A DNA stretch of 54,139 nucleotides from Basidiobolus heterosporus B8920 (taxonomy: Eukaryota > Basidiobolomycota > Basidiobolomycetes > Basidiobolales > Basidiobolaceae). Position numbers and translations under genes: made by a program. This document shows positions 728 through 50,035 of this stretch, in pieces. The notes under the pieces were generated by a model, which saw nothing but the letters and a program-made list of their open reading frames with translations, was not told where the DNA came from and did not search any database. Within the stretch, counting starts at the first letter, position 1. Each line of letters opens with the position of its first letter. The DNA is taken from contig JNET01034168.1 of assembly GCA_000697455.1 (NCBI GenBank), positions 1 through 54,139 of the forward strand. Reading direction: 5' to 3'.

Positions 728-748
728 CCCCTATTAAAATTAATTCCG

Positions 749-764
749 TCAGATCCGGATCTGA
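749..764. promoter_or_regulatory. Subterminal perfect 16-bp palindrome of CACTA copy A
   Basis: TCAGATCCGGATCTGA is its own reverse complement and sits 21 bp inside the element end. A second imperfect unit (TCTGATCTGGATCTGA) follows immediately. In copy C the same place reads TCAGATCTGGATCTGA, one base off the palindrome. It is a candidate binding site for a transposition protein, but this is inference from position and symmetry. Confidence 0.45.
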
Positions 765-1404
765 TCTGGATCTGATTTGTGTGATCCCACAATAGAATTG
801 TTAGGTCACTGGCTAGTTGTTAATTATTAGGTGAGCTGCTGGTTTTTTGATGGTTTTATGGTGGTGTTCACGTGGTATTTATCCAGCAGCCATATATCTA
901 TTAATTTTTATCCTGGTACCATCCCATCACATTTATATAGCAGTATTCTTGCATTATGCACTCAAATATTTTTATTTATTTAGTATTCCACTGCTCCACC
1001 TTTCTCCCACCAACTATTCCGATCATAATGAGTGTCAAAAAATACTAAATATTAGCTCTTGCTTGCCTCTAGATATGCACAAATTTGATTTAACAGGCAA
1101 AATTCAACCACATCTACATACTTCCCTTCCATACACACATTGGCAAAATTACTATACATGCTGTATCTTTTATAACCCATGCACTTTGCTAGTAAATGGT
1201 ACCTTGTGCTGGTGGAAGCCATGATGAGTTGTTGTACTTGCACAAACACTCACTGTGTATTCATCCAAAATATGCCTCTTGATATTTAAATATTGGTTTG
1301 GTTACTATATTGCTTAATATGACTGGGAAATACTATACCATGTCCAAAGCTAAACAGCTGGATGTTCTCCCAAGTTATTCCTGCAAGATATTGTTGAATT
1401 CTCC

Positions 1405-3790
1405 CTAAAGTATAATTACAATAAAGTTAGTTTGGTGCAATTTACACAGAAATATGAATTCAGAATTAGGGGTTGTCCATGGATTTAGTGTGGTCAGTTG
1501 AGCTCTTCCAACCACCCAAGAAAGCCCATGGATGCAACAATATGGTACTCCGCCTGCTTTGCCTCTCCTTAGTATTTGATCCTTGCTCCATTTTGTAGTA
1601 TCTATCACCAATGTTGCTGTAACATTCTTGATGAGGTTAACATATGGTAGAACTGCCAATTTTGTCTGATTCACAATCTCTCCGCATATGCGTTCCATTG
1701 GAAACTCCCGGAAAGTGTAACATGGTCCAATTACCTCCAAACATTGTGCCAGGTGTAATAATGAGTGGACAGAATAGTGGCATAAATTGATTTGGCCAGG
1801 AATGTGTCTGTAGTAGAGCCTCTCAAATCCTATCACAAACTCCTCACAAAGATGATGAATATGGCATAAATCAGCAACTGGTAGCTTGTGTCTTAGATAG
1901 ATGCCGGTAATATCTACAAGTAGCTCCCAATGCTTCCAGTAGATATTTGGTAAAAATCTCATCAAAATACCGCTGGAATAATTACATATCCAATACTTCC
2001 AATTCATACAATTAAATAACTTTATGCTGGTGTGGATATTCATTACCCTATGAGAAATTGCAAAAGTTGTAATTTCACCTTTTTTTGCTGGTTTTTAGCA
2101 GGTATTCCGCTATTAACTTGCTGGTGTTACACCCAAAATCAAGGATTTTCATTTTCTGCTGGTATTTTGCTGGTATTGGGACCCACAAGGTTGCAAATCT
2201 GCTGGTGTCTTGCTGGTACTCTCATGGTCCATTTTTCATAGGGTTGGTGTGCAGGTAAAATATGATGGTGTGTGGATATCATCTAGTATTTTGCCAATTA
2301 CTGGGAACTTCTCTGGTATTTCAAATATGCCATTAAGGTTCAGCTTGCCACTTTATAACTTGGTTATCAATATAGGTATATTATTGAAAAGTAAGTGCAT
2401 GGCACCCAATGGGAAGCTTGCTGTCCTGCTAAGGCTCTTCAGTAGTAAGATTGCTGGCTTATGGCTAATACCTGTTTCAATTGATGGGAATGACAATTCT
2501 TCACAAACTGTTGCTAACATGTCAGATTCATCACGGTTTTTGAATGGTAAGAGTTGGTTGTTTACTGTTGTGTTGGGGTAATAATAATGTCAATGACTTG
2601 ATGAATATACTCCCTTCATTTCCCAGAATCTACAACTTGCCATTGCATTGTGTCCCCAGAATCCGGCCACTTTGCTCTGTACTGGTGTGTCACCTATAAA
2701 TACAATAATGTGACCTTTTACCACCTGGTTGTCTATTGATACTCCTCTGGCAAGACACCAAAACTCTTCAATCAATGGAACAAGGAAACTGTCAAGGTTT
2801 CCTGGTGATTTTGGACCTGATATTAGCGTAACAACCATGATGTTTTCACTTTTGTAGCGCTCTTTTGGTGGTAGATTTAGATTAAGTAGAATGACTGGCC
2901 AGCAGGCTTTACTCATAGTGTATTTGTTGAGTTCAAAGCCATCCAATGCCAATGCAAATGCATGATCATAGCAGCCTCTAAAAAAGCCCTAACTCTGAAG
3001 ATCTTGATAGTGGCATCCATCAAGTATATCACTTATGCCTTCACCTGGTGGGTAATGATCTCAATAGAGAATCATTGACTTATATGTATCCAATTTCATC
3101 ATGACTTTTAAGTGGGTATTATTGAGTTATAGGCTGAATATGAGCGATACTTACTAGTTGGTGAAGTAAACAACTCATGGCAGTTGCTATACTTGCAATA
3201 TGCTCATTTTTGCCAGTCAATACTACACAACTATTACAACAGCATGGTATATTCTTAGCCATTGGGTCATATGTTGCATGGGAAACCAGTGATTTCTACC
3301 TGAACCAGGTGTTTGGTAGCCAGCAATCAGCAATGATCTTGGTAGTGTCTCAAGAAATTGGCAAAAACTAGGTTACTGATATTTAATTTAATTTGCATTC
3401 TTCTATTATTGATAGGATATCTTCTATTGTTTCCTTAACATGTGGGCTAACTGAGGAGGCTAGCAGGGTGGAATATTCACTAACTTCTTCTCCACCAGTT
3501 TCTCACCAATCATATTCAACAGAGCTTACTTAATCAAGCTCTTCACATATTTTGTGAAGGTCATCATCACTGTCCATACTCATGTTATTTACGGACCGGT
3601 TATCCTCTGGGTGCTCTTCAGAGAGGGTGGAAGACAGTACATTAACCGCAAGTAAATCCATCATATGTGAATTGTTTGCCTGAGGTATAAAGTCCAATAG
3701 AGTATGGTTCAAGTTATTACTTGGTGGTAATCTAGCGGTGCTTTTCCAGTTAACTTCTGGTTTTTTAGACAACTACCGTGACTTTGTTGG
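1405..3790 (-). pseudogene. Tnp2-type (Transposase_21 plus DUF4218) transposase, copy A
   Basis: This is the transposase of the CACTA (En/Spm) superfamily, which cuts and pastes the element in the nucleus. Three frames of the same gene remain. The N-terminal acidic region (3530-3772) contains SMDSDDDLHKICEELD. The Tnp2 core (2590-2952) has DGFELNKYTMSKACWPV, LPPKERYKSENIMVV, SGPKSPG and FIGDTPVQSKVAGFWGHNA. The DUF4218-like end (1405-2043) has SVHSLLHLAQCLEVIGPC and REFPMERICGEI. The first catalytic Asp (DGF) and the Asp of GDTP are still present. Stops and frameshifts between these blocks and the MITE at 2046-2243 destroy the gene. Family assignment is by motif recognition and is fairly secure. 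Confidence 0.75.
2046..2243. mobile_element. 198-bp MITE of the CACTA-like family
   Basis: It starts CCCTATGAGAAATTG and ends with the reverse complement of CCCTATGAAAAATGG. Copy C lacks it: its sequence runs from GGTGTGGATATTCATCAG straight into GTGTGGGTAAAATATGATGG. This is an empty-site comparison inside the window. Flanking trinucleotides are TTA and TTG, suggesting a 3-bp target duplication with one mutation. The inside has no coding potential but contains six TGCTGGT motifs in direct orientation. The ends match those of copy B, so copy B's family could have mobilised it. Confidence 0.8.
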
Positions 3791-4039
3791 TATTTCCTGT
3801 GAAGTCTATGTGCCTCATTCCTCAATAGCTTTAGAGCTTTATAGGAAGTCCTCTCAAGTCAAGATTACCAATGGCTTGGGCTCTATTTCAACTTTCATAA
3901 AAAAGGCCCTACTGGTGCATGCAGTATTAGCCATCCCCAGTCACTGCCTCAGAGAAAACTGGTGCTCACTAATTGATCTTCATGGCATCACTCCCAGATG
4001 TATGTTATGTCCTACTCTGCAGACAACTTTATGCTTTCA

Positions 4040-5010: not shown

Positions 5011-5315
5011 ACTCCACCATCCCTATGAGAAATTACGGTCAGAATACCAGCAGAAAATTGACAAATTTTTTTCCAGATCGGTGATCAGTGCAAAAACACT
5101 GTCATAAAATCGGCAAGCTACAAATTTCTCACCAGGAAAAATCCAGCTGTCAATGACTACCTTGGAGGAGCTTATTTAATTCCGTTATGTGATTGGTCAG
5201 TTACTGCTGTGTTGATCCACTGCCATAAGCTAAAAATTTCTCTACATTTATCAAGCAAATAAATTTTTTTTCTCATCAATTTTTAGTTGCATTTCTATGT
5301 TCACTTTCCCCAGAG

Positions 5316-7000
5316 CAAAAATTGTGTTGTCACATATGTTGTACTGTGCAACTATCTCAAAAAGTATCCATCATTCTATCAATAAACAAGTGGTTATACC
5401 TTTCTTCCATAGAGTTCATGGATATCCAACAGCACTATGCCACTTTTTATTCAGCTTCTCAATAAATTCTATGTCCTGTGCTACCTCCATTGTGAGTCCA
5501 GTTATCTTCCAGAGAAAAGTCTCATATACCTCTGTAACTAGCATTCCGGACTTTTCCTGGAAATATGAGGTGATTGCATCCCAGTACTTATTGCACTTGG
5601 AAAACTGAACTGGCTTTAAGAATCTGAATCTGGGAGCTACTTCTTTTACTTGTACTATTGTTGTCTGTATCACAATGCTTTCCATAGTCTGGCTTTGTGA
5701 CCAGGAGCTCCTAGGTGAAGCCACCTGCCTAGTAGATTTTGCCTGGGCTTTGCCCTGGCTCCTTGTATGTTGTGAGGTGATTGGCATTGGGTATATCTGA
5801 AGTGGGGACAAAGGAGTTGTGTCTACACTTGGTCTGAGTGAGGTAGAACTTGGGAAATCAGGTTTATTAAGGGTACTAGGTGTTCTTAATTTCCTACCTT
5901 CTAGCAGATTTTCCATGGGAGTTCTGCAAATACTGCTTGAAGCCTGGTCCTTAGGATTCTCCACAAATTCAGACATTTCTTTGCCAGTAGGAACCTGTGG
6001 CTTTGCTTCCGCCTTCCTCTTTGTCCATTGATAACCCCTTACATTTTTCATTTATGTAATGAAACAATCTATGGTTGCCCAGATTCCACTGGCTTGCTGA
6101 AAACCAGGATAAGCAACATGAAACCAATCAATTACCATCTGAGTGATGGCAGGTCTCTGTTCTCTCCAACTCTGTTGAAAATCAATGTAGTTTCTTGTAA
6201 TATTACACATTGTCTCTTGGATATTTATCCACTCAGTCTCTCTGTAATCAACATACTCTTGGATATTCAAGGTCTTTTGATTTATTAGTTTCCCAACAAG
6301 GCTTTGGCTTTCATTTGTCCAAGCTATTTCATGCTGCTGTAGAGGCTTAATTAGCGGGTTCTTGTTTTGCTCAGCACAACTTTGTTGAGTAACTTTGGAT
6401 GGTAGATGTGGTAATGGTTGATAACTGGTCAGAAATTCAACAAATGGTGCCATTCTATTCTCTAGTGCTCATGTTCAGTGGTCATATTCATTGAACTGGA
6501 CATCAATTGCATTCAGGCTGCTATTATACTCCTTGTTATTGGAATCCATATGCTTCAATGCATCATTGATATTCCTGATAGCTGCTTGCATTGCCTAACT
6601 ATTCTTCTCAATAAGTAATAAGCACGGATTACTTGTAGAGGTAGTGGTATCTACATAGAATATATTTTTGTCTAATTACTGTGAAAATATATCTTCTAGA
6701 TGCTGATTGACTGATAGAACTGCTTCATCTTGACAAGCTTTTGGCAAGTGAATTTCTCTATCTTTCCCCTTATCTGATATTTTACGTGTCTCTTCCTCTG
6801 GCATATGCACTATTGTAAAGGCTGTATCATGGATAGGGAATTGCAACCTGGAGGTCTTGTCACCTTTCTTCAATAGCTCTTTTCCATTGCCCTCACCCTC
6901 TGGCTGATCTTTCTTTCTTGCAGGTGTAGGGTGAGGTGATGGTGACTGTTTACTGCATTTCTTGCATTTGCATGGTATTGGTCATATGCAGGGTAACATA
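5316..7000 (-). pseudogene. Companion protein of the CACTA-like element (about 530 codons)
   Basis: One minus-strand frame runs from an ATG near 7000 to about 5416. It has only six or seven in-frame stops (one just after the start, then near 6676, 6597, 6475, 6469 and 6052), and recognisable residues continue to 5316. The N-terminus has CKCKKC and a Pro/Ser/Lys-rich tail (SPSPHPTPARKKDQPEG). A helical, Asn-rich middle follows (MQAAIRNINDALKHMDSNNK), then a segment with WREQRP...WFH.AYPGFQ, and a C-terminal block RFRFLKPVQFSKCNKYWDAI ending in LNKKWHSAVGYP. A partial second copy lies at 505-625. I do not recognise a family. By position it could be the DNA-binding partner, analogous to TnpA of En/Spm. 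That role is inference. Confidence 0.6.
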
Positions 7001-7009
7001 TCCTAGCCA

Positions 7010-7023
7010 GCAATGTACATTGC
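7010..7023. promoter_or_regulatory. 14-bp perfect palindrome in the divergent promoter region of copy B
   Basis: GCAATGTACATTGC is self-complementary and lies just upstream of the companion start, in the gap (about 7001-7253) between the two divergent genes. A site in this place could serve a shared regulator. Chance palindromes of this length are possible, so confidence is low. Confidence 0.3.
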
Positions 7024-7253
7024 TTTGTTCCTATATGCTCAATAAAATGCGTATGACTTGCAAATATGATCTGATATCAATATATAGATAAGACAGCTCT
7101 AAGACTGTCTCAGCTTTGTGACACTCTACACATCATCAATATACACCACAACAATGAGGCAAGAGTGTCCTTTTCTTCAACACAAGCATTGAAGTGCACT
7201 GAAGTGTCAAATAGTGGGCAACAAAGAAGCCTTGTTACTATTGCCATAAACTA

Positions 7254-9470
7254 TTGAGTCACAAGAGGTGTAGACTACATAGGAAATACCAACAAAGTCA
7301 TGGCAGTTGTCAAAAAGAACCAGAGGTTAACAGGAAAAGTACCTCTAGATTACCACCAAGTAACAACTTGAACTGTACTTTACTGGACTTTATCCCTCAG
7401 GCAAACAACTCCCATATCATGGATTTACTCAAGGTTAATATACTCTCCTCCACCCTCTCTGGAGGGTACACTGAGGATAATTGGTCCATAAATAACATTA
7501 GTATGGATAGTGATGATGATCTTCACATAATATGTGAAGTGCTTGACCAAGTAAGCTCTGTGGAACAAGATTGATCAGAAGCTGGTGGAGAGGAAGTTGG
7601 TGAATATTCCATTTTGCTAGCCTCAGTTAGTCCATATGTTAAGGAAACATTAGAAGATGCCTATTAGTAATAGAAGAATGGAAAATTAAATCAAATATCT
7701 GTAACCTAGTTTTTTGCCAATTTCTAGAGACACTACCAAGATCATTGCAGATTGCTGGCTACCAAACACCTGGTTCAGGTGGAAATTACTGGTTTCCCAT
7801 GCAACATATGACCCAATGGTTGAAAATATTCCATTCTGTAGCAATAGTTGTGTTGCATTGACTGGCAAAAATAAGCAAAATCCCAAGTGTAGCAACTGCT
7901 ATGAGTTGTTTACTTCACCAACTGGTAAGGAGCACATATATTCAGCCTACATACCAATGATACCTTGCTAAAAAGTCATGATGAAATTGGGTAGATATAG
8001 GTCAAGGATTCTCTATTGCGATTGTTGCCAGCCATGCAAAGGCTTAGGTGATATACTTGATGGATACCATTATCAAGATCTTCTGAGTAAGGGCTATTTT
8101 AGAGGCTGCTATGATCATGCATTTGCATTGGCATTGGATGGCTTTGCACTCAACAAATACACTATGAGTAAAGCCTGTTGGTCAGTTATTCTACTTGACC
8201 TATATCTACCACCAAAAGAGCACTACAAAAATGAGAACATCATGGTTGTTTTGCTAATATCAGGTCCAAAATCATTAGGAAACCTGGCGGGTTTCCTTGT
8301 TCCATTGATTGAAGAGTTTTGGTTGCATGCCAGAGAAGTATCAATAGATAACCAGGTGGCAAAAGGTCACATCATTGTATGTATAGGCAACACACAAGTG
8401 CAGAGCAAAGTAGCCAGATTCTAAGAACATAATGCAATGGCATGTTGAAGATTCTGCAAATTGAAGGTAGTATATTGGGCAGGTCACTCACATTGATATT
8501 ATCCTAATGCAACAGTAAACAGCCAACTCATACCATTCAAAAATCATGAAGAATCTGACATGTTGGCAACAGTTTGTGAAGAATTGTTGTTCCCATCAAT
8601 TGAAACAGGTATTAGCCATAAGCCAGCAATTTTACTACTGAAGAGCCTTAGCTGAACAGCAAGCTTCCCATTGGGTGTCATGCACTTACTTTTCAATAGC
8701 ATACCTATGCTGATGACCTAGTAATATAGTGACATGCTGAACCTTCATGGAGCACTTGAAGTACCAGAGAAGCTCACAGTAATCAGCAAAATACTAGATA
8801 ATTTCTGCACACCATCATATTTACCTGCACACCAGTGAATATCCATACCAGCATAAAGTTATATAAATGTAAGGATTTGTAGTATTGGATATGTAATTAT
8901 TCCAGCACTATTTTGGAGGGATTTTTACCAAATATCTACTGGAAGCATTGGGAGTTATTAGTGAATATTACCAACATCTATCTAAGACACAAGCTAAAAG
9001 TAGCTGATTTACACCACATTCATTGTCTTTGTGAGGAGTTTGTGACAGGATTTATAAGCTCTACTACAGACAAATTCCTGGCCAAATCAATTTATATTGC
9101 CATTCTGTCCACTCATTGCTACACTTAGCACATATTTAGAGGTATTTGGATCATGTTACACTTTCAGGAGTTTCCCATGGAATGCCTATATGAAGAGATT
9201 GTAAATCAGGCAAAATTGGTAGCTCTACCATATGCCAACCTCATCAAGAATGTTACAGCAATACTGGTGATAGATACCACTAAATGGAAAATCAATCAAA
9301 CACCAAGGAGAGGAAAAGCAGCAGGAGTATCATATTCTTGCATCCATGGGCTTTCTTGGGTAGTTGGAAGAGCCCAACTAACCTTGCTAAATCCATGGAC
9401 AATCTGTAACTCTGAGGTCATATTTCTGTGTAAGTTGTACCTCACGAACTTTATTGTCATGATACTTTAG
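7254..9470 (+). pseudogene. Tnp2-type transposase, copy B
   Basis: The order of blocks is as in copy A. An acidic N-terminus (7254-7574) contains SMDSDDDLHIICEVLD. A Cys-rich part has PKCSNC and YCDCCQPC (about 7880-8040). The Tnp2 core (7978-8424) has LALDGFALNKYTMSKACWSV, LPPKEHYKNENIMVV and SGPKSLG. A DUF4218-like end (8913-9470) has FLPNIYWKHWELL and LHHIHCLCEEFVTGF. The Asp of the GDTP motif in copies A and C is Asn here (IGNTQVQSKV), so a probable active-site residue is lost. Frames change near 7690 and 8900, with further stops near 8424 and 8655. The DGF Asp is retained. Confidence 0.75.
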
Positions 9471-10239
9471 GGAGAACTCAATCATATCTTGCAGGAATAG
9501 TTTGGGAGAACATCCAGCTATTTAGCTTTGGAGGTGATATGGTATTCTTCAGCCATAGTAAACAATAGAGTAACCAAACCAATATTCATATATCAAGAGG
9601 CATATTTTGGATGAATACACAGCAAGTGTTTGTGCAAGTATAGCAACTCATCATGGTCTCCACCAGTGCTAGGTAGCATTTACTAGTAAACTGCATTTGT
9701 TATAAAAGATAAGGCATGTATAGTAATTTTGCCAATGTGCATATGGAAGGGAAGTATGTAGATGTAGTTGAGTTGTGCCTGTTGAATCAAATTTGTGCAT
9801 ATGTAGGGGTGAGCAAGAGCAAATGTTTAGTACTTCTTGACACTCATTATGAGTGGAATAATTGTCAGGAGAAAGGTGGAATAGTGGAATACTAAATCAA
9901 TCAAAATATTTGAATGCATAAAGCAGAAATACCACTATATAATGTGACAGGATGGCACCATGATAAAGAAGTTAACAGATGTAAAACTGCTGCATAAATA
10001 CTGCATGAATACCATCATAAAACCGTCAGATAGCCAGCAGCTCACCTGATATTTAACAACTAGCCAGTGTCCTGACAATCTTATGGTGGAATCACACATA
10101 TTGGATTCAGATCAAATCCAGAACTGATGAGACTAATTTTCATAGGGGCATGTGAATGGAAACTTAAAAGAAAATCTTAATAGAGAGCAACTAGAGGATG
10201 TTATAGGTCCCTATTTAGTAGTTTGTCATTTTTTTATCA

Positions 10240-25612: not shown

Positions 25613-26985
25613 ATGCCTCACGAAGAAACTACCAACTGGAACTCTACCATGCAAAGACTTCTGCAACAGCAAAATGATATTCTACAGTATTTAGCTACTC
25701 AGCATGCCATGAATCAGCAAGATGTGAAGACAACTGACTCTGGAAGCAGCTCTCTATAGGGGCATGTTAGTATTTACCATGGAAGAAAAGATGAGAACTT
25801 AGGATCCTGGCTATTTCAGATGGAAGAAGCTTTCCTTGCCAAAGGAGTGCCTGACTCAAGAAAGGTGTATAATGTCTCCACCTACCTTGGATCTGCAGCT
25901 TTACAGTGGTACCAGAACAGAAAAAGAAGTGCAGAGATGCATCAAGCCTCTCCTATTAGCACTTGGGAAGAATTTGTCTCAGCTATTAAGGAAGTATTCC
26001 AGCCCCTGAACCGGCAGCCTATACTAAGAACAAAACTCTGAATGTTGAAGCAAACAGAATCTGTCCAGGAGTATGTCTATGAATTCAGAAATTTGATGGG
26101 CCAAATTGAACACATGCATGAGCTTGACCAAATCCAGCACTTTGTTGAAGGTTTAAAAGCCCAAACTAGAGCTAAAGTGAACTACAAAGCACCATCCACC
26201 ATTGAAGAAGCTATAAGAATTGCAATAAACTATGACAGTGCCATGTATGGAGTAGGAAGATATCCAATTGAACCAAGAAGAACCTTCAGAAGCACAGACC
26301 CAAGCACTTCACAAGTTGTGCCCATGGAACTAGGATTTATACAGAAAGTACCCTTCAAAGATGATTGCAAAAGGCTTGGACTTTGTTTCATTTGCCATAT
26401 TGCCAGATACTATAAGACCTGCCCTCAGTCATTGCCCCAGAAGATACTGGCCACCACTAAGCAGTCTTCCAAAGAGGACTCCCAAGAATATTTTACGTCC
26501 AACTCAGCTGACAACTTCATGCTTTCTCTTGGTGAAGGAGCTAATTCATTGTTCTATCTTGATGCGACATTGAATGAGCATCCACTTAGAGTAATGATAG
26601 ACTCTGGGGCCTCTAATGACTGTATCTCAAGCAGAATTCTACACCAGATTGGAGTTACAACTGAGCCAACACCTGCCAGTAGCCTTACCATTGCAGATGG
26701 GAAACAGTAAACCATTGACAAAATAACAGACTATATGAGGCTGAAGATTAATAATTATGAAGAGGAACTCTGTGCCTATGTATTCCCTGATTCAAACTTT
26801 GATCTTATATTGGGACAATCTTGGCTTATGAGAAGAGACCCTATAATCTCATGGAGAAACAAAGAAATGGCTCTGGAGAAAGATGGCAAGACTTATCACC
26901 TAAAACCGTCCAAGATGTACTTGAATGCCATGCCTGAAAGCCCAAATGAAAGCATGTCTGTTACAAAGACCCAATTGGCAAGAAC
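25613..26985 (+). pseudogene. Gypsy gag and protease
   Basis: An ATG at 25613 opens a frame (MPHEETTNWNSTMQRLL). Three in-frame stops interrupt it, near 25757, at 26039 and at 26708. The capsid-like part has SWLFQMEEAFLAKGVPDSRK and TWEEFVSAIKEVFQP (Retrotrans_gag type), then SVQEYVYEFRNLMGQ. The nucleocapsid knuckle is damaged: CFICHIARYYKTC lacks the residues present in the minus copy (CFIWHMKGHTARYC). The aspartic protease active site DSGAS (Asp codon near 26600) is intact. A frameshift near 26980 leads to the pol frame. Confidence 0.85.
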
Positions 26986-29669
26986 CTTGAAGCAAATGTT
27001 GAAATGTACCTTATGGCCACTATTATGGAAGAAGACCAAGAATCAAGTAACTCAGATATCCTTATGATAGTCAAGGAGTATAAAGATGTGTTTTCTGAAT
27101 CTCTGACTCAGCTCCCACCAGAGAGAGATGTTCACCATGCCATTGATCCTAGAGACAGCCTATCTGTAAGCAGGACACCCTATAGAATGAGTCCATTGGA
27201 GTTAGAAGAGCTCAGAAAGCAGCTTGATGAGTTATTACAACAAGGCTTTATAAGACGCAGCAAATAACCATGGGGAGCACCTGTACTCTTTGTGAAGAAG
27301 AAAGATGGTACCTTGAGATTGTGCATTGACTACAGAGCATTGAATTCTGTCGCTGTGAAGAACAAGTATTCTATACCCAGGATTGATGAGATGCTAGACC
27401 AACTGAATGGAGCCAGATTCTTTACAAAGTTAGACCTCAGATCAGGCTACAACCAGATCAGGATTAAGCCAGAAGACATTCCCAAGACAGCATTTAGAAC
27501 CAAATACGGACACTTTGAGTATTTGGTGATGAGTTTTGGACTTACTAATGCTCATGCAACCTTCCAGACACTGATGGAGACTGTTTTTAAGGAGCTACTG
27601 GACCACTGTGTTGTTTTCTACCTGGATGATATCTTAGTCTATAAAAAACCAAAGAAGACCACTTGACCCATTTAAGAACTGTGCTGGAGTTACTCAGGCA
27701 GAATTAAATGTATGCTAAACTCTCAAAGTGTGAATTTATGAAAGACCCTGTGGAGTATTTAGGCCATATTGTGACTGCAGGAGGAGTGAAGGTAAACACT
27801 AAGAAAGTCCAAGTCATAAAGGAGTGGAAACAACCTCAAAACATCAAGGAACTAAGATCATTCCTAGGACTAGCCTCTTACTACAGAAGATTTGTGAAGT
27901 TCCTTGCTACCATTGCTGCCCCTTTAACTGACCTACTGAAGAAAGAATCTGTACATCAATGGACCCCAAGCTGTGAAGTAGCATTTCAGACTCTGAAGGA
28001 AGAATTAGCCCAATTGCCTGAACTTGAGCAACCAGACTTCAGTAAGCCATTCTTCCTCACCACTGATGCCACAGACTTTGCCATTGGAGGAGTACTTAGC
28101 CAGATTCATGACTCTTTGGAGTTTCCTGTAGCCTTTGAGTCCAGAAAGTTAAACTCAGCAGAAGCAAGTTATCCAGTTCATGAGAAGGAGTTACTAGCAA
28201 TTGTACATTGTCTTAAGGTCTGGATATGCTATATTGAAGGAGTGTAGTGCACTGTATGGACTGACCATGCCTCACTCTAGTACTTCCAAACTCAGAAGGT
28301 TCCCAGTAGAAGAATGGGACATTAGTTTGAGTATATTCAGCAGTATGACCTAGAGATATGCTACACCCCAGGAAAGAACAATGTTGTTGCTGATGCCTTG
28401 TCAAGAAACCCAATGCTGCTCAATCAAATGGAGGAAACAGACTGGCCTATGCTAGTGTCAGAATATCTGAAGGAAAATAAGATAACTACTCCCTGTGATG
28501 AATGTACTAAGATTCTAGTCAAGGAAGAAGCTAAGAGCTTTGTGCTGAATGATGAAGCACTGTTTAGGATTGTTGATGGTACTCCTATCCCATTCTGCCC
28601 CTTTGTCAGTAGACTGGACCTAGTTTGCAAGTTACATCATGGCTATGGACACTTGGGAATTGAAGGAACTTATGATCTGTTGAAAACTAAAGCATAATGG
28701 CCCAATCTAAAACTTGATGTTGAGAAAATTGTGAAAACACGCCCCAACTGCCAGCTGAACATGGAGCAACCAAGGAGGCTTGCTGAACTATTTCCTTTGG
28801 AGCCTGTAGCATCTTTTGACAGATGGGGAATAGACTTTATTGGCAGGCTGCCTACATCAAAGAAAGGAAACAGATGGATCCTTGTTGCCATTGATCATGG
28901 CACTAAATGGCCTGTTGCTAGAGCTGTACCTGTTGCTACTGAAGAGATTGTTGCTAATTTCAATTACCATGAGATCCTGTTACAGTTTGGCTACCCTGTT
29001 GAAATACTGTCTGATAGAAGTGCTAGCTTCATGGCCAAAACTTTAGAGAAGTACTTAGAACTACAAAAGATTAAGCATCTGAGAACATCTGCTTATCATT
29101 CCAGAACTAATGGTGTAACTGAAAGATTTGGTTGTCTACTAGGCAAGATGCTAACTAAGTACACTAATGGCCAACTGCCTAAGTGGGATGAATACTTGGA
29201 TCAGGCCCTCTTTGCTTACAGAATCAGGAACCACATTGCCACAAAGAAATCACCATTCTACCTAGTTTATGGAAGTCAGCCTAGAATACCTGGAGATACT
29301 ACTCAGCCTAAGCTTTCTGACCCACTTGAAGATGAACTCAGTCTGAACCAGGAGAAAAGATTTACAAAGCTGAACAAGGCCATAGATGAAGCCAAGCAGA
29401 TCCTTATGCATCAAGCTGACAAGATGAAAGAGAGATATGATGAAGGAGTTAAGGCAGAAACTCTGAATGCTGGCAACTTTGTTCTATTAAGAAACAACAC
29501 CAAGAAGAAGTTTGAGCCACTTTGGGTTAGACCTTACAAGATTATTAGGGCATGTCCATTAGAAACCTATCAGCTTATGGAGAAGAATGGAACCATTAAG
29601 GAGGATTTAGTGTATAGGGATAGACTTAAGCTAGCAAAAGTGGATGATGCAAGTTCTAGAAAGCTTTGA
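26986..29669 (+). pseudogene. Gypsy pol: reverse transcriptase, RNase H, integrase
   Basis: RT (27090-27900) has [48 protein letters not shown] and the intact catalytic box YLDD. A frameshift lies in the A-rich run near 27650. RNase H (28030-28247) has LTTDATDFAIGGVLSQ and PVHEKELLAIVHCLK. Integrase follows: the HHCC finger (HHGYGHLG, then RPNC) has one Cys replaced by Arg, while the DD35E triad is intact (GIDFIG, LSDRSASFM, GVTERF) with 35 residues between the second Asp and the Glu. In-frame stops occur at about 27268, 27705, 28246, 28276, 28327 and 28695. One of these matches a Gln codon turned to TAG (ASL-stop-YFQTQ). Confidence 0.9.
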
Positions 29670-34199: not shown

Positions 34200-34520
34200 C
34201 TATTGCTACATGACTTTGGATGGTGATTCTTGTTGAAATTATTTGGGGAGAATTATTGGTCTGGCCAGGAATTGAACCTGGGACCTCCTTAACTCTAGCA
34301 AGGTGCTCTAACCATTGAGCTACCAGTCCTTATATGCAATGCCTATATTACTAGGGGACCTTAACCTAGTCTGTATTTGTATGGTACTTTGGCATGTCAG
34401 CTATACAAGCAACTGATTGGTCTTAGACTTTGCGTTCAGATGCAGTCACCATACTCCATATTTTCCTCTTTAGGAAATGCTGCTTGTACCACAAGTCACC
34501 AGACTTTCAACATTTCTCCC
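34200..34520 (-). repeat. Repeat S with tRNA-like domain, minus copy
   Basis: The minus strand matches 51999-52287 (plus) in order: AAAGTCTGGTGACTTGTG, CAAGCAGCATTTCCT, CAATCAGTTGCTTGTATAGC, ATGCCAAAG, ATATAAGGAC, the tRNA-like core, then TCTCCCCAA. It lies within minus-strand copia gag, which it interrupts near 34520. Both copies can also be read as a similar peptide before the tRNA part (LVVQAAFP and LVAQAPFP), which may be chance conservation. Confidence 0.65.
34257..34329 (-). tRNA. tRNA-like cloverleaf (pseudo-tRNA or SINE head)
   Basis: The minus strand folds as a 73-nt class I tRNA. The acceptor is GGACTGG/CCAGACC with one mismatch, the D stem GCTC/GAGC, and the anticodon stem CCTTG/TAAGG (one G-T) with loop CTAGAGT. 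The variable arm has five bases (AGGTC) and the T arm is CCAGG-TTCAATT-CCTGG. Box A (TAGCTCAATGG) and box B (GGTTCAATTCC) fit the RNA polymerase III consensus. The apparent anticodon AGA would read Ser, but serine tRNAs have a long variable arm, so this is probably not a working serine tRNA. A degraded copy in a shared flank (52184-52256) favours a tRNA-derived repeat. Confidence 0.7.
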
Positions 34521-43650: not shown

Positions 43651-43789
43651 TTGACTAACACATTAGAGCAAATAAGTGTCTGGTGCATTTAGGAAAGGCA
43701 TTTGTTGCCCTACCTTACAGCTAAGCTGGTTGAATAGAATAATGCAACATAAGATTGCAGTTTTGATTAATGAAATAGCATTACATCTA

Positions 43790-45760
43790 CTATATCCTTT
43801 ATCATGGTTGCAACTTTTCACTCTTAGTAGCTAGCATTTATGCATTTTGCACTCAATCATACTCATTTGTTCATCATTTCATTATTCCACCATTCTATTG
43901 GCAATCATTCCCCTTGTGGTTGGTGTCAAAAAGTACCCAATGCTCAACATTATTCACCCTGGCATAGATGCATATTGAGTTTCATAGGAACATACCAGCA
44001 ACAACTGCATACTTCCCTCCCATGTGCAAATTTCAGAGTTATCACAACGCTGTATCTTTATATGATGTACATTTTGCATATGGATGGTACACTATGATAA
44101 TGGAAACACCAGTGGGTGGTCATATCTGTGCAAAGATTTGTGCTTACTCAGCCAAAATGGCACTCTAGAAATTTGCACATTTGCTTGGTTATTATAAGGT
44201 TTGCTAAGATGGGGTGGTACTATGCTACATCTGAAGCTACATAGTGCATGTATTGCCACATATTCCTACCAGATGTTGTTGAGCTCACTGTGGCAGAGTA
44301 CATAAGAAAGTTAGTATCAATCAGTTTACACAACCAAATGTCTTCAGAATCACAGGTTGTTCATAAATACTGTGTTGTTGGTTGAGCTCTTCCAGCTACC
44401 CAAAAGAAAATATGTATGAAAGAGTCTGGTACTCTTGCTACTTTTCTTCCCTTTAACTTTTAGTCTATGTTCCACTTGAGCATATGTACTAAAAATTTTG
44501 CTGCAATATTTTTAATTGGGTCATATTTGGTAAGATTACTGATTTTACCTGCTTCACAATCACTTCATGTAAGAGTTCCATATGAGACTTGTAGAGAGTG
44601 TAAAATTACCTTACTACCTCCAAACATTGAGTCAGGCATAGTAGGAGCAAACACAAAAATGGCAAAAATGATTCTTATAAAGAACATGTTATAGTAGAAT
44701 TTTTCTAATCCCGTCACATACTCCTGAATAAATTATGCATATGGCATAAATTACCAGTTGTTAGCATATTTTTTAGAAGGATGCTTGTAGTATCCATGTA
44801 TAACTCTTAGTGCTTCCAGCTGAGATCTAGTGAAGACATCTTCAAAGTATTGCTAGAATGAAAATATATTCAACACTTCCAATCCATACATCTAGGCAAC
44901 TTTATGCCAGTGTGGAAATTCATTTGGCATGGGTAAAATACGTTAAGAGGTAGGTATTGTGCAGCATATTGCTGAATACCAAGAACTTCTCCAGTATTTC
45001 AAATATACCATCAAGGTTCAGCTTCCTACCATAAGACTTGTTCAACAGTATGGAATATCATTGAAAAGTAAGAGCATGTTTCCCAGCGGGAAGCTTCCTG
45101 TCTAGCTAAAGCTCTTTGGTAGTAGAATTGTTGGCTTGGGGATGCATTTATAAGTTAAGGATGTGTCTATAGGTAACTTTTTATTTATCCCTGAAACAAA
45201 TGTTGCTTGTGTCTACAAATACATCCCTCTGCTTTCAGTAAGTATAATGTAGAAATCTGCTCAGTATACTAATAGAGTAGTATCATTCTGATTCAGCTTG
45301 GCACTCTAGGACTTGGTTGTAGGTACTGTGAGATTGCTAAGAAATGCAAGGTTCCCAGAGGGAAACATACCATCTAGCCTAGGCTCTGTTGTAGAAGAAT
45401 CAATGGCTTCTGGCTAATATCTGCTTAAACACATTGAAATGGCACTTTCTCACAAACTCTGGTAAACATATGAAATCTGGTATAACCTGTAAATGATGCA
45501 TGTTACTTATTAGCTGTTGTGTTATGGTAATTTTAATATGAGTAACTTGACAATTCTACTGCCTGCATATTACAGAATCTAGAATATTTCATTGTGTTCT
45601 TGGAATTCAACTATTTTATTGCTCACACATATGTCACCTACAAATATAAGTTTGTTATCATTTACTACGTGATTTTCTACTCTTGTTACTCTTACAATCA
45701 GTCAAAGCTTGACATATATGGCCTGATAGTAGCATTGAAACTGTGACTACATCATTTTTT
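43790..45760 (-). pseudogene. CACTA-like transposon copy D, very worn, minus strand
   Basis: Segments follow copies A and C in order: TTTGCACTCAATCATACTCA and TGGTGTCAAAAAGTACC (43850-43935), CATACTTCCCTCCCATGTGCA (44008-44030), GTTGAGCTCTTCCAGCTACCC (44381-44401), and ACTTTATGCCAGTGTGGAAATTCA (44898-44921). They continue with CCATCAAGGTTCAGCTT (45008-45024) and GGGAAGCTTCCTG (45090-45103). The gene is beyond reading as protein. Its ends were not identified. A stretch near 45330-45420 appears to repeat the 45010-45140 segment, suggesting an internal duplication. Confidence 0.6.
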
Positions 45761-49330: not shown

Positions 49331-50035
49331 CAAGCTCTTCTCAGCACTGAAATGATAATTTCATGAAGGTTTTCTGCTTAACCTCTTATTTTTAGAACTC
49401 AGCCATGGCTTTTTTAGAACATCTTATAGAGTTCATTTGCCTAAGGACTTAAATGATTGCTGCAATTGAAATGGAGCTTCTTTGTTTGTCATCATGTAAC
49501 ATTTCAGTGTACTTCAATCTTGATCTTGAAGAGAAGAGCACTCCTAGCTCACAGGTTTAATATATATTGCCAATTTGCTTCATGTGACTAACATGAGGTT
49601 ATCTTATAAATGTCTTGCCAATACAGTAACATTTCAACTTTGTTTGGAAATTGTATGCATTTCAATTGACATAGACAAACAATGCAATGTTTATTGCAGG
49701 TTTGAATATGTTATCCTTCATTTAACTGATGCCATGAAAATATATGTAAACTAGGAAAAAGCAACTATCTGCTGTCCATACACCCTCAGGAAACACAGGT
49801 TAGACCTTGGGAGGGATAAGGAAAAGGGATTGTCAAAGAAGAGTGCTTAGGCTTTGGGTTTCAAGTATCAACCCTTGATACATACCCTACCACAATAAAT
49901 GTACTATGAAGACAAAACAACATCACGTATAGATACCAGATAAGATTAGGAAATATACGTACCACAATCAAGAAGAGTAATCAAAGGACCAACCTGATCC
50001 CAAGGGCATTATTCATGGAAACTGAGTGGCAGTGT
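49331..50035. other. Unassigned AT-rich sequence
   Basis: No reading frame, LTR, RNA gene or repeat match was recognised apart from weak similarity to the end of the CACTA companion fragment near 50015-50040. Confidence 0.35.

Follow-up and report, generated by a model that had tools for sequence, protein, structure and literature searches.

Two divergent genes in a decayed transposon of probable CMC/EnSpm type and its MITE relatives in Basidiobolus heterosporus B8920

The stretch of DNA studied here, in the following called the window, comprises 54,139 nucleotides of Basidiobolus heterosporus B8920 (assembly GCA_000697455.1, contig JNET01034168.1, forward strand). Between positions 5021 and 10147 it holds a decayed transposable element that has CCCTATGA in inverted orientation at both borders and carries remnants of two genes facing away from each other, one for a transposase of the tnp2 type and one for a companion protein. 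Partial copies, a distant relative and a miniature inverted-repeat transposable element (MITE) with matching ends lie elsewhere in the window (Table 1). Genome searches were run against the 8.1-Mb assembly with its 428 contigs, to which labels such as C208 refer.

Table 1. Features of the element and its relatives in the window.
Feature	Positions	Strand	Basis and remarks
Whole element, decayed copy	5021..10147	.	5127 bp; border alignments of copies; relatives mostly 74-87% identical
Left terminal inverted repeat, CCCTATGAGAAATT.CGGTCAGAAT	5021..5045	+	End searches and copy alignments
Subterminal inverted near-copy of left end (CCTGGTGAGAAATT)	5123..5136	-	Copy comparison
Companion gene frame, ~540 codons	5416..7038	-	Open reading frames (ORFs) 5416-6051 and 6052-6453 plus interrupted upstream part; ORFs, protein matches, stop counts
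Transposase gene region, broken by stops and frame changes here	7158..9893	+	Open stretches in several copies, which set the limits
Transposase_21 (tnp2) match, PF02992; first acidic DDE residue in ALDGF	8122..8325	+	Profile search
Transposase 3' part, EFPME stretch with putative last acidic residue	9153..9470	+	ORF and relative comparison
Right terminal inverted repeat, starts CCCTATGAAAATTA	10123..10147	-	Copy alignments
Second copy, 3' 56% of element, without companion, split by MITE (729-2042 and 2245-3808)	729..3808	-	Genome and window alignments
MITE, 198 bp, matching ends, six internal TGCTGGT direct repeats	2046..2243	+	End search, genome matches, flank comparison
Distant relative, two pieces (43781-45137 and 49476-49826), ~66% identity	43781..49826	-	Alignment
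Third copy, right part, runs off contig end	52289..54139	-	Alignments

The borders of the element are defined by its relatives. Counting the copies in the window, 19 distinct places start at or close to position 5021 (base 1 in 17 cases, bases 3 and 4 in one case each) and 12 finish at or close to position 10147 (ten exactly there, the other two 2-4 bases earlier), and the flanking sequence differs among the aligned places on either side. The extent and the ends that a first-pass annotation of the window had proposed are thus matched on both sides. CCCTATGA is exact in 11 of the 19 left ends and in six of the 12 right ends. The former count is biased, six places (C81, C118, C136, C208:13580, C232 and C264) having entered solely via an end-pattern search; among the remaining 12 left ends outside the window, four carry exact CCCTATGA and eight depart from it by one to three differences. 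The right ends were retrieved with a 2.7-kb query and are free of this bias, and in several relatives the right terminal inverted repeat continues to GTCAGA, like the left end. With up to three mismatches allowed, 19 sites in the genome match the 20-base left end (reversed control 0), and 19 occurrences, MITEs among them, were also obtained for CCCTATGARAAATTG (control 0). By itself, CCCTATGA is not above chance: the window contains 4 where 1.87 are expected, a number reached in 9 of 100 shuffles; the borders are regarded as real because many copies align there with different flanks, not because of this letter count. Alignments on C3, C120, C130 and one on C413 end 21-52 bases before the right border and were excluded from the end count; other copies do finish at the borders of the element. 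As to the earlier statement of an end common to three copies, the alignment bears it out and the exact letters do not: both further copies in the window retain the right end alone, in mutated form (CCCTATTA and CCTCATGG). Inside the left border, the inverted near-copy of the left end reads exactly AAATTTCTCACTAGG in seven of the 12 other copies printed and is one letter off in three more, and by itself it is not above chance (10 found, 8.34 expected).

That the plus-strand gene encoded a Tnp2 transposase, as initially suggested, was confirmed by a PF02992 profile search of the genome, which returned nine places, eight of them over the Pfam curated cut-off, and none in 14 control genomes. The piece in the window scores 35.9 bits and that on C419 63.1 bits (E 2.7e-17). 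In the latter copy, two stop-free stretches span the tnp2 core and the transposase 3' part, and by eye they contain a D in MDGF, a D in CIGDTP, CCRFC (C(2)C), HSLLH (H(3)H) and an E in FPMER; the second acidic residue is lost from the copy in the window. A search of 5.8 billion proteins yielded two relatives of the tnp2 core (P0003 and P0004) and a single one of the 3' part, the environmental protein P0001, which is 61% identical to it and has all of the C419 motifs except the first D, which lies outside P0001. A D-D-E triad together with C(2)C and H(3)H is the signature of CMC transposases (PMC12730594, PMC4592977).

The companion gene is represented by ORFs 6453-6052 and 6051-5416, which share one frame and are separated by one stop, and by an interrupted stretch upstream. 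Stops were counted over 68 copy alignments with each duplicated stretch counted once. In the companion frame (minus phase 1) they amount to 65 of 3918 codons (1.7%) between 5416 and 6453 and 26 of 1930 codons (1.3%) between 6453 and 7038 (76/4934 and 39/2775 before duplicate removal); over this region, the five other frames range from 3.0 to 10.7%. The frame of the tnp2 core served as a yardstick, with 22 stops in 1355 codons (1.6%) vs. 5.6-9.1% in the other frames. The companion frame of about 540 codons was therefore coding in the ancestor. It has 34 protein-level matches in the genome, and alignments run collinearly through both genes in six other contigs (C208, C400, C3, C102 with two copies, C421 and C419, where the contig ends within the companion part). 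The C3 copy has the companion in the same place at ~74% identity over the companion side, which argues that the divergent layout is old in the family of the element. Stop depletion and collinearity together uphold the two-gene, divergently transcribed arrangement read by the first-pass annotation. The companion protein is basic near its N-terminus, as judged by eye, and a single relative (P0002), a fragment of 128 aa from a contig of 2 kb, was retrieved from the 5.8 billion proteins.

The MITE begins with 16 bases that are the same as the usual left end of the element, in agreement with the claim that a MITE shares the ends, and it interrupts the second element copy. Its 20 match rows in the genome correspond to 19 places (one is split), 18 of which have both ends; the remaining one (L094) is without the left end and was left out. 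Exact 3-bp duplications flank 11 of the 18 two-ended copies (AAT, ATT, TTC, TAT, ATT, GTG, TAC, TAA, ATT, TAT and TGC), a number to be compared with fewer than one expected by chance according to our estimate. Three copies show one mismatch, among them the MITE in the window (TTA/TTG), and four show no match; five of these seven copies (L006, L084, L087, L088 and L090) have one or both ends too decayed for full alignment. The target duplication of the MITE is 3 bp. Its TGCTGGT repeats, which share the same strand, follow one another every 11-38 bases and resemble the subterminal repeats of CACTA elements; near the left end of the element itself this motif occurs once, inverted. It is possible that the MITE comes from a sister family of the element.

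Over 300 bp, 13 left ends show 74-97% similarity to one another, and five of them (C136, C208, C264, C323 and C232) form a tighter set of 93-97%. Four of these five run off contig ends, and the alignment on C232 ceases at base 439. An unbroken copy was not found in the stretches read, nor did the genome matches include a second copy that is full-length and has both ends, and the element at 5021-10147 is a dead copy. The observed/expected ratio of CpG is 0.07 in the element and 0.08 across the window, compared with a value of 0.74 for the Hsp70 locus (L095), a depletion that fits decay driven by methylation or by a process akin to repeat-induced point mutation (RIP). At C150:15961-16583 (L005), one family copy is inserted into another, an instance of self-nesting. 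The two pieces of the distant relative have the same order and orientation and are separated by ~4.3 kb vs. 1.4 kb in the element; this relative is perhaps a larger sister family.

Judged by its transposase, the element would very probably be placed in the CMC/EnSpm (CACTA-like) superfamily. Transposase_21 is present, C(2)C and H(3-4)H were recognized by eye between the second D and the E, and the MITE with matching ends shows a target duplication within the range of 2 to 5 bp (3 in EnSpm). In the strict sense the element is not CACTA, since its ends start CCCTATGA and DUF4218 (PF13960) beside tnp2 was not detected by profile; a second ORF, such as CACTA elements have in TnpA/ORF2, does exist in the form of the stop-depleted minus-strand frame. 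Assignment to Plavaka finds no basis either in the ends, which start neither TGT nor CATCA, or in profile PF18759, which had no match in the genome (nor any positive control match in that search). Taken together, we interpret the locus as a dead two-gene cut-and-paste transposon of the CMC/EnSpm type from a fungus, with a divergent tnp2 transposase and companion, a repeated family and a MITE, and put the probability of this interpretation at about 0.85.

DDE transposases of the CMC type cut an element at its ends and reinsert it with a staggered cut. For the element described here, the transposase would cut at the CCCTATGA ends and insert with the 3-bp stagger that is seen on the MITE and presumed for the element, and the divergent start region at ~7040-7160 would carry both promoters. 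The MITE would be moved in trans by the element or by a sister element. The companion would act as a helper that binds the ends, as a counterpart of TnpA (ORF2) in En/Spm, a DNA-binding helper whose sequence varies between plant families (PMC2613891). By this analogy, we give a TnpA-like function of the companion about even odds.

Several results weigh against the interpretation as a two-gene CACTA-like transposon. The ends are neither CACTA nor CA..TG. The 3-bp target duplication that had been anticipated is borne by the MITE and not by the element, the one full-length, two-ended copy found, whose left flank reads CAT and whose right flank reads GCA without a clean duplication (CAT recurs one base further out, a weak indication). 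The DUF4218 domain reported for the transposase in the first-pass annotation could not be recovered, neither by a profile search of the genome, which had no positive control match and is weak on that account, nor by a search of four ORF pieces with matches allowed up to E 10. The stretch around FPMER, where the profile search did not find it, is where we assume that DUF4218 would be expected. In the frame test across copies, neither the 5' nor the 3' part of the transposase showed a stop-depleted frame, probably owing to frameshifts there in the window copy to which the frames are anchored. Among the copies, synonymous changes are not in excess in the gene frames and substitution rates by codon position give no clear coding signal, which we ascribe to drift and decay of the copies after insertion; the constraint on the companion therefore rests on stop depletion. 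On the strand opposite each gene, there are likewise open stretches that reach 152 codons. The companion accompanies the transposase in the six other contigs and not in every copy, since the transposase copies at 729-3808 in the window and on C306 are without most or all of it. Against Pfam, the companion gave nothing over the cut-off (best E 0.026), and an AlphaFold model of a companion piece based on five aligned pieces was too poor (mean predicted local distance difference test score 40.3) and was not used. Finally, mobilization of the MITE by the element's own family is suggested by the shared ends, its sole basis.

One competing explanation concerns the companion, which might be a passenger rather than a transposition helper, namely a gene captured from the host or one with an accessory role, e.g., in anti-silencing, that became fixed early in the family. 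The lack of a Pfam match and the single fragmentary relative would suit such an origin, and passengers such as TET/JBP and alpha-kinase are known from fungal DNA transposons (PMC12730594), but the position kept in the C3 copy at ~74% identity and the fact that a second ORF is usual in CACTA elements (PMC4158355) speak against it, and we consider a passenger somewhat doubtful.

Two further alternatives touch the affiliation of the element. The first is that it is a member of the Sly lineage of CMC elements from Neurospora crassa and Chaetomium globosum. Like the element, Sly1-1 is fungal, its transposase has C(2)C and H(3)H, and it possesses a second gene of unknown function, homologues of the two genes lying side by side in Ch. 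globosum with divergent transcription (PMC4592977). Sly1-1 has, however, a length of 11.5 kb vs. 5.1 kb for the element, and membership, which would call for homology of transposase and companion to NCU09969 and NCU09968, appears unlikely. To the same degree, it is unlikely that the element is a fungal version of the TRC elements known from animals (SmTRC1 and its relatives), which are related to CACTA elements, and not of plant and fungal EnSpm. Transposase_21 and CCC-starting ends are common to both, the Tribolium end CCCTAGTAG resembles CCCTATGA (PMC1636069), and the C419 tnp2 core has a match to DUF1258 (PF06869) below the cut-off (E 1.4e-6, 28.4 bits vs. 33.1). TRC elements reside in animal hosts and generate duplications of 2 bp (PMC1636069), in contrast to the 3 bp on the MITE of the element's family; the same paper leaves the ends of its fungal relatives undefined. 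That unrelated remnants were joined by chance and nesting is negligible as an explanation: nested, decayed repeats are indeed present in the window, but borders and internal order are common to many copies, which rules out such an artefact. A chance pairing of the ends was also rejected.

Other known systems resemble the element in part. The EnSpm elements of Pucciniales (Kojima, 2025) are likewise fungal and combine a CMC-type transposase with 3-bp duplications; their ends are CAC..GTG, in contrast to CCC..GGG (PMC12730594). Plavaka A/B elements, also fungal and related to CMC with 2-3-bp duplications, end in TGT..ACA or CATCA..TGATG (PMC12730594). En/Spm and other plant CACTA elements share the tnp2 transposase, a second protein and 3-bp duplications (PMC4158355, PMC2613891), whereas En/Spm has CACTA ends and derives both products from alternatively spliced transcripts, not from two divergent genes (PMC2613891). 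CNIRT6 from Cryptococcus neoformans is a fungal element of the CACTA type as well, with a length of ~7.5 kb and ends that start CACTG (PMC12810828). Among the papers listed in literature searches, without Repbase, for fungal CACTA/EnSpm/Plavaka elements, for second or divergent genes and for the letters CCCTATGA, which gave titles with no relation to the subject, Sly and SmTRC1 were the only precedents, and among those papers CCC ends, 3-bp duplications and a divergent companion were not found united in one fungal element. The idea of an undescribed subfamily defined by layout and ends must therefore be narrowed, since CCC ends (PMC1636069) and the divergent Sly arrangement (PMC4592977) are already published, and novelty is limited to the combination and to this particular family.

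Apart from the element and its relatives, the window contains pieces of a Ty3-type retroelement (26042-29669) with gag/protease and integrase-core matches, most of them just under the Pfam cut-offs, and a transfer RNA gene (34257-34329, minus strand, 60.3 bits), the sole Rfam match in the window at gathering score. Elsewhere in the assembly, the Hsp70 gene has mitochondrial Stress-70 as its best PDB match, and six matches to the transcription-factor domain Fungal_trans were found, with none in 14 prokaryote controls; both results are in keeping with a fungal host.

CACTA elements are often assigned by their terminal sequence. To judge from a tnp2 family that combines CCC ends with 3-bp duplications, the letters of the ends and the length of the duplication may vary independently, and the divergent second gene, as in Sly, suggests a layout that recurs in fungi. 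The element furthermore offers a putative source for a MITE family that would otherwise be unclassified in genome annotation. Tentatively, and as a conjecture that goes well beyond the interpretation of the locus itself, the element could stand for an undescribed fungal CMC lineage with CCC..GGG ends, 3-bp duplications and a divergent, fast-evolving end-binding helper, which would link animal TRC and Sly-type elements and feed its own MITEs.

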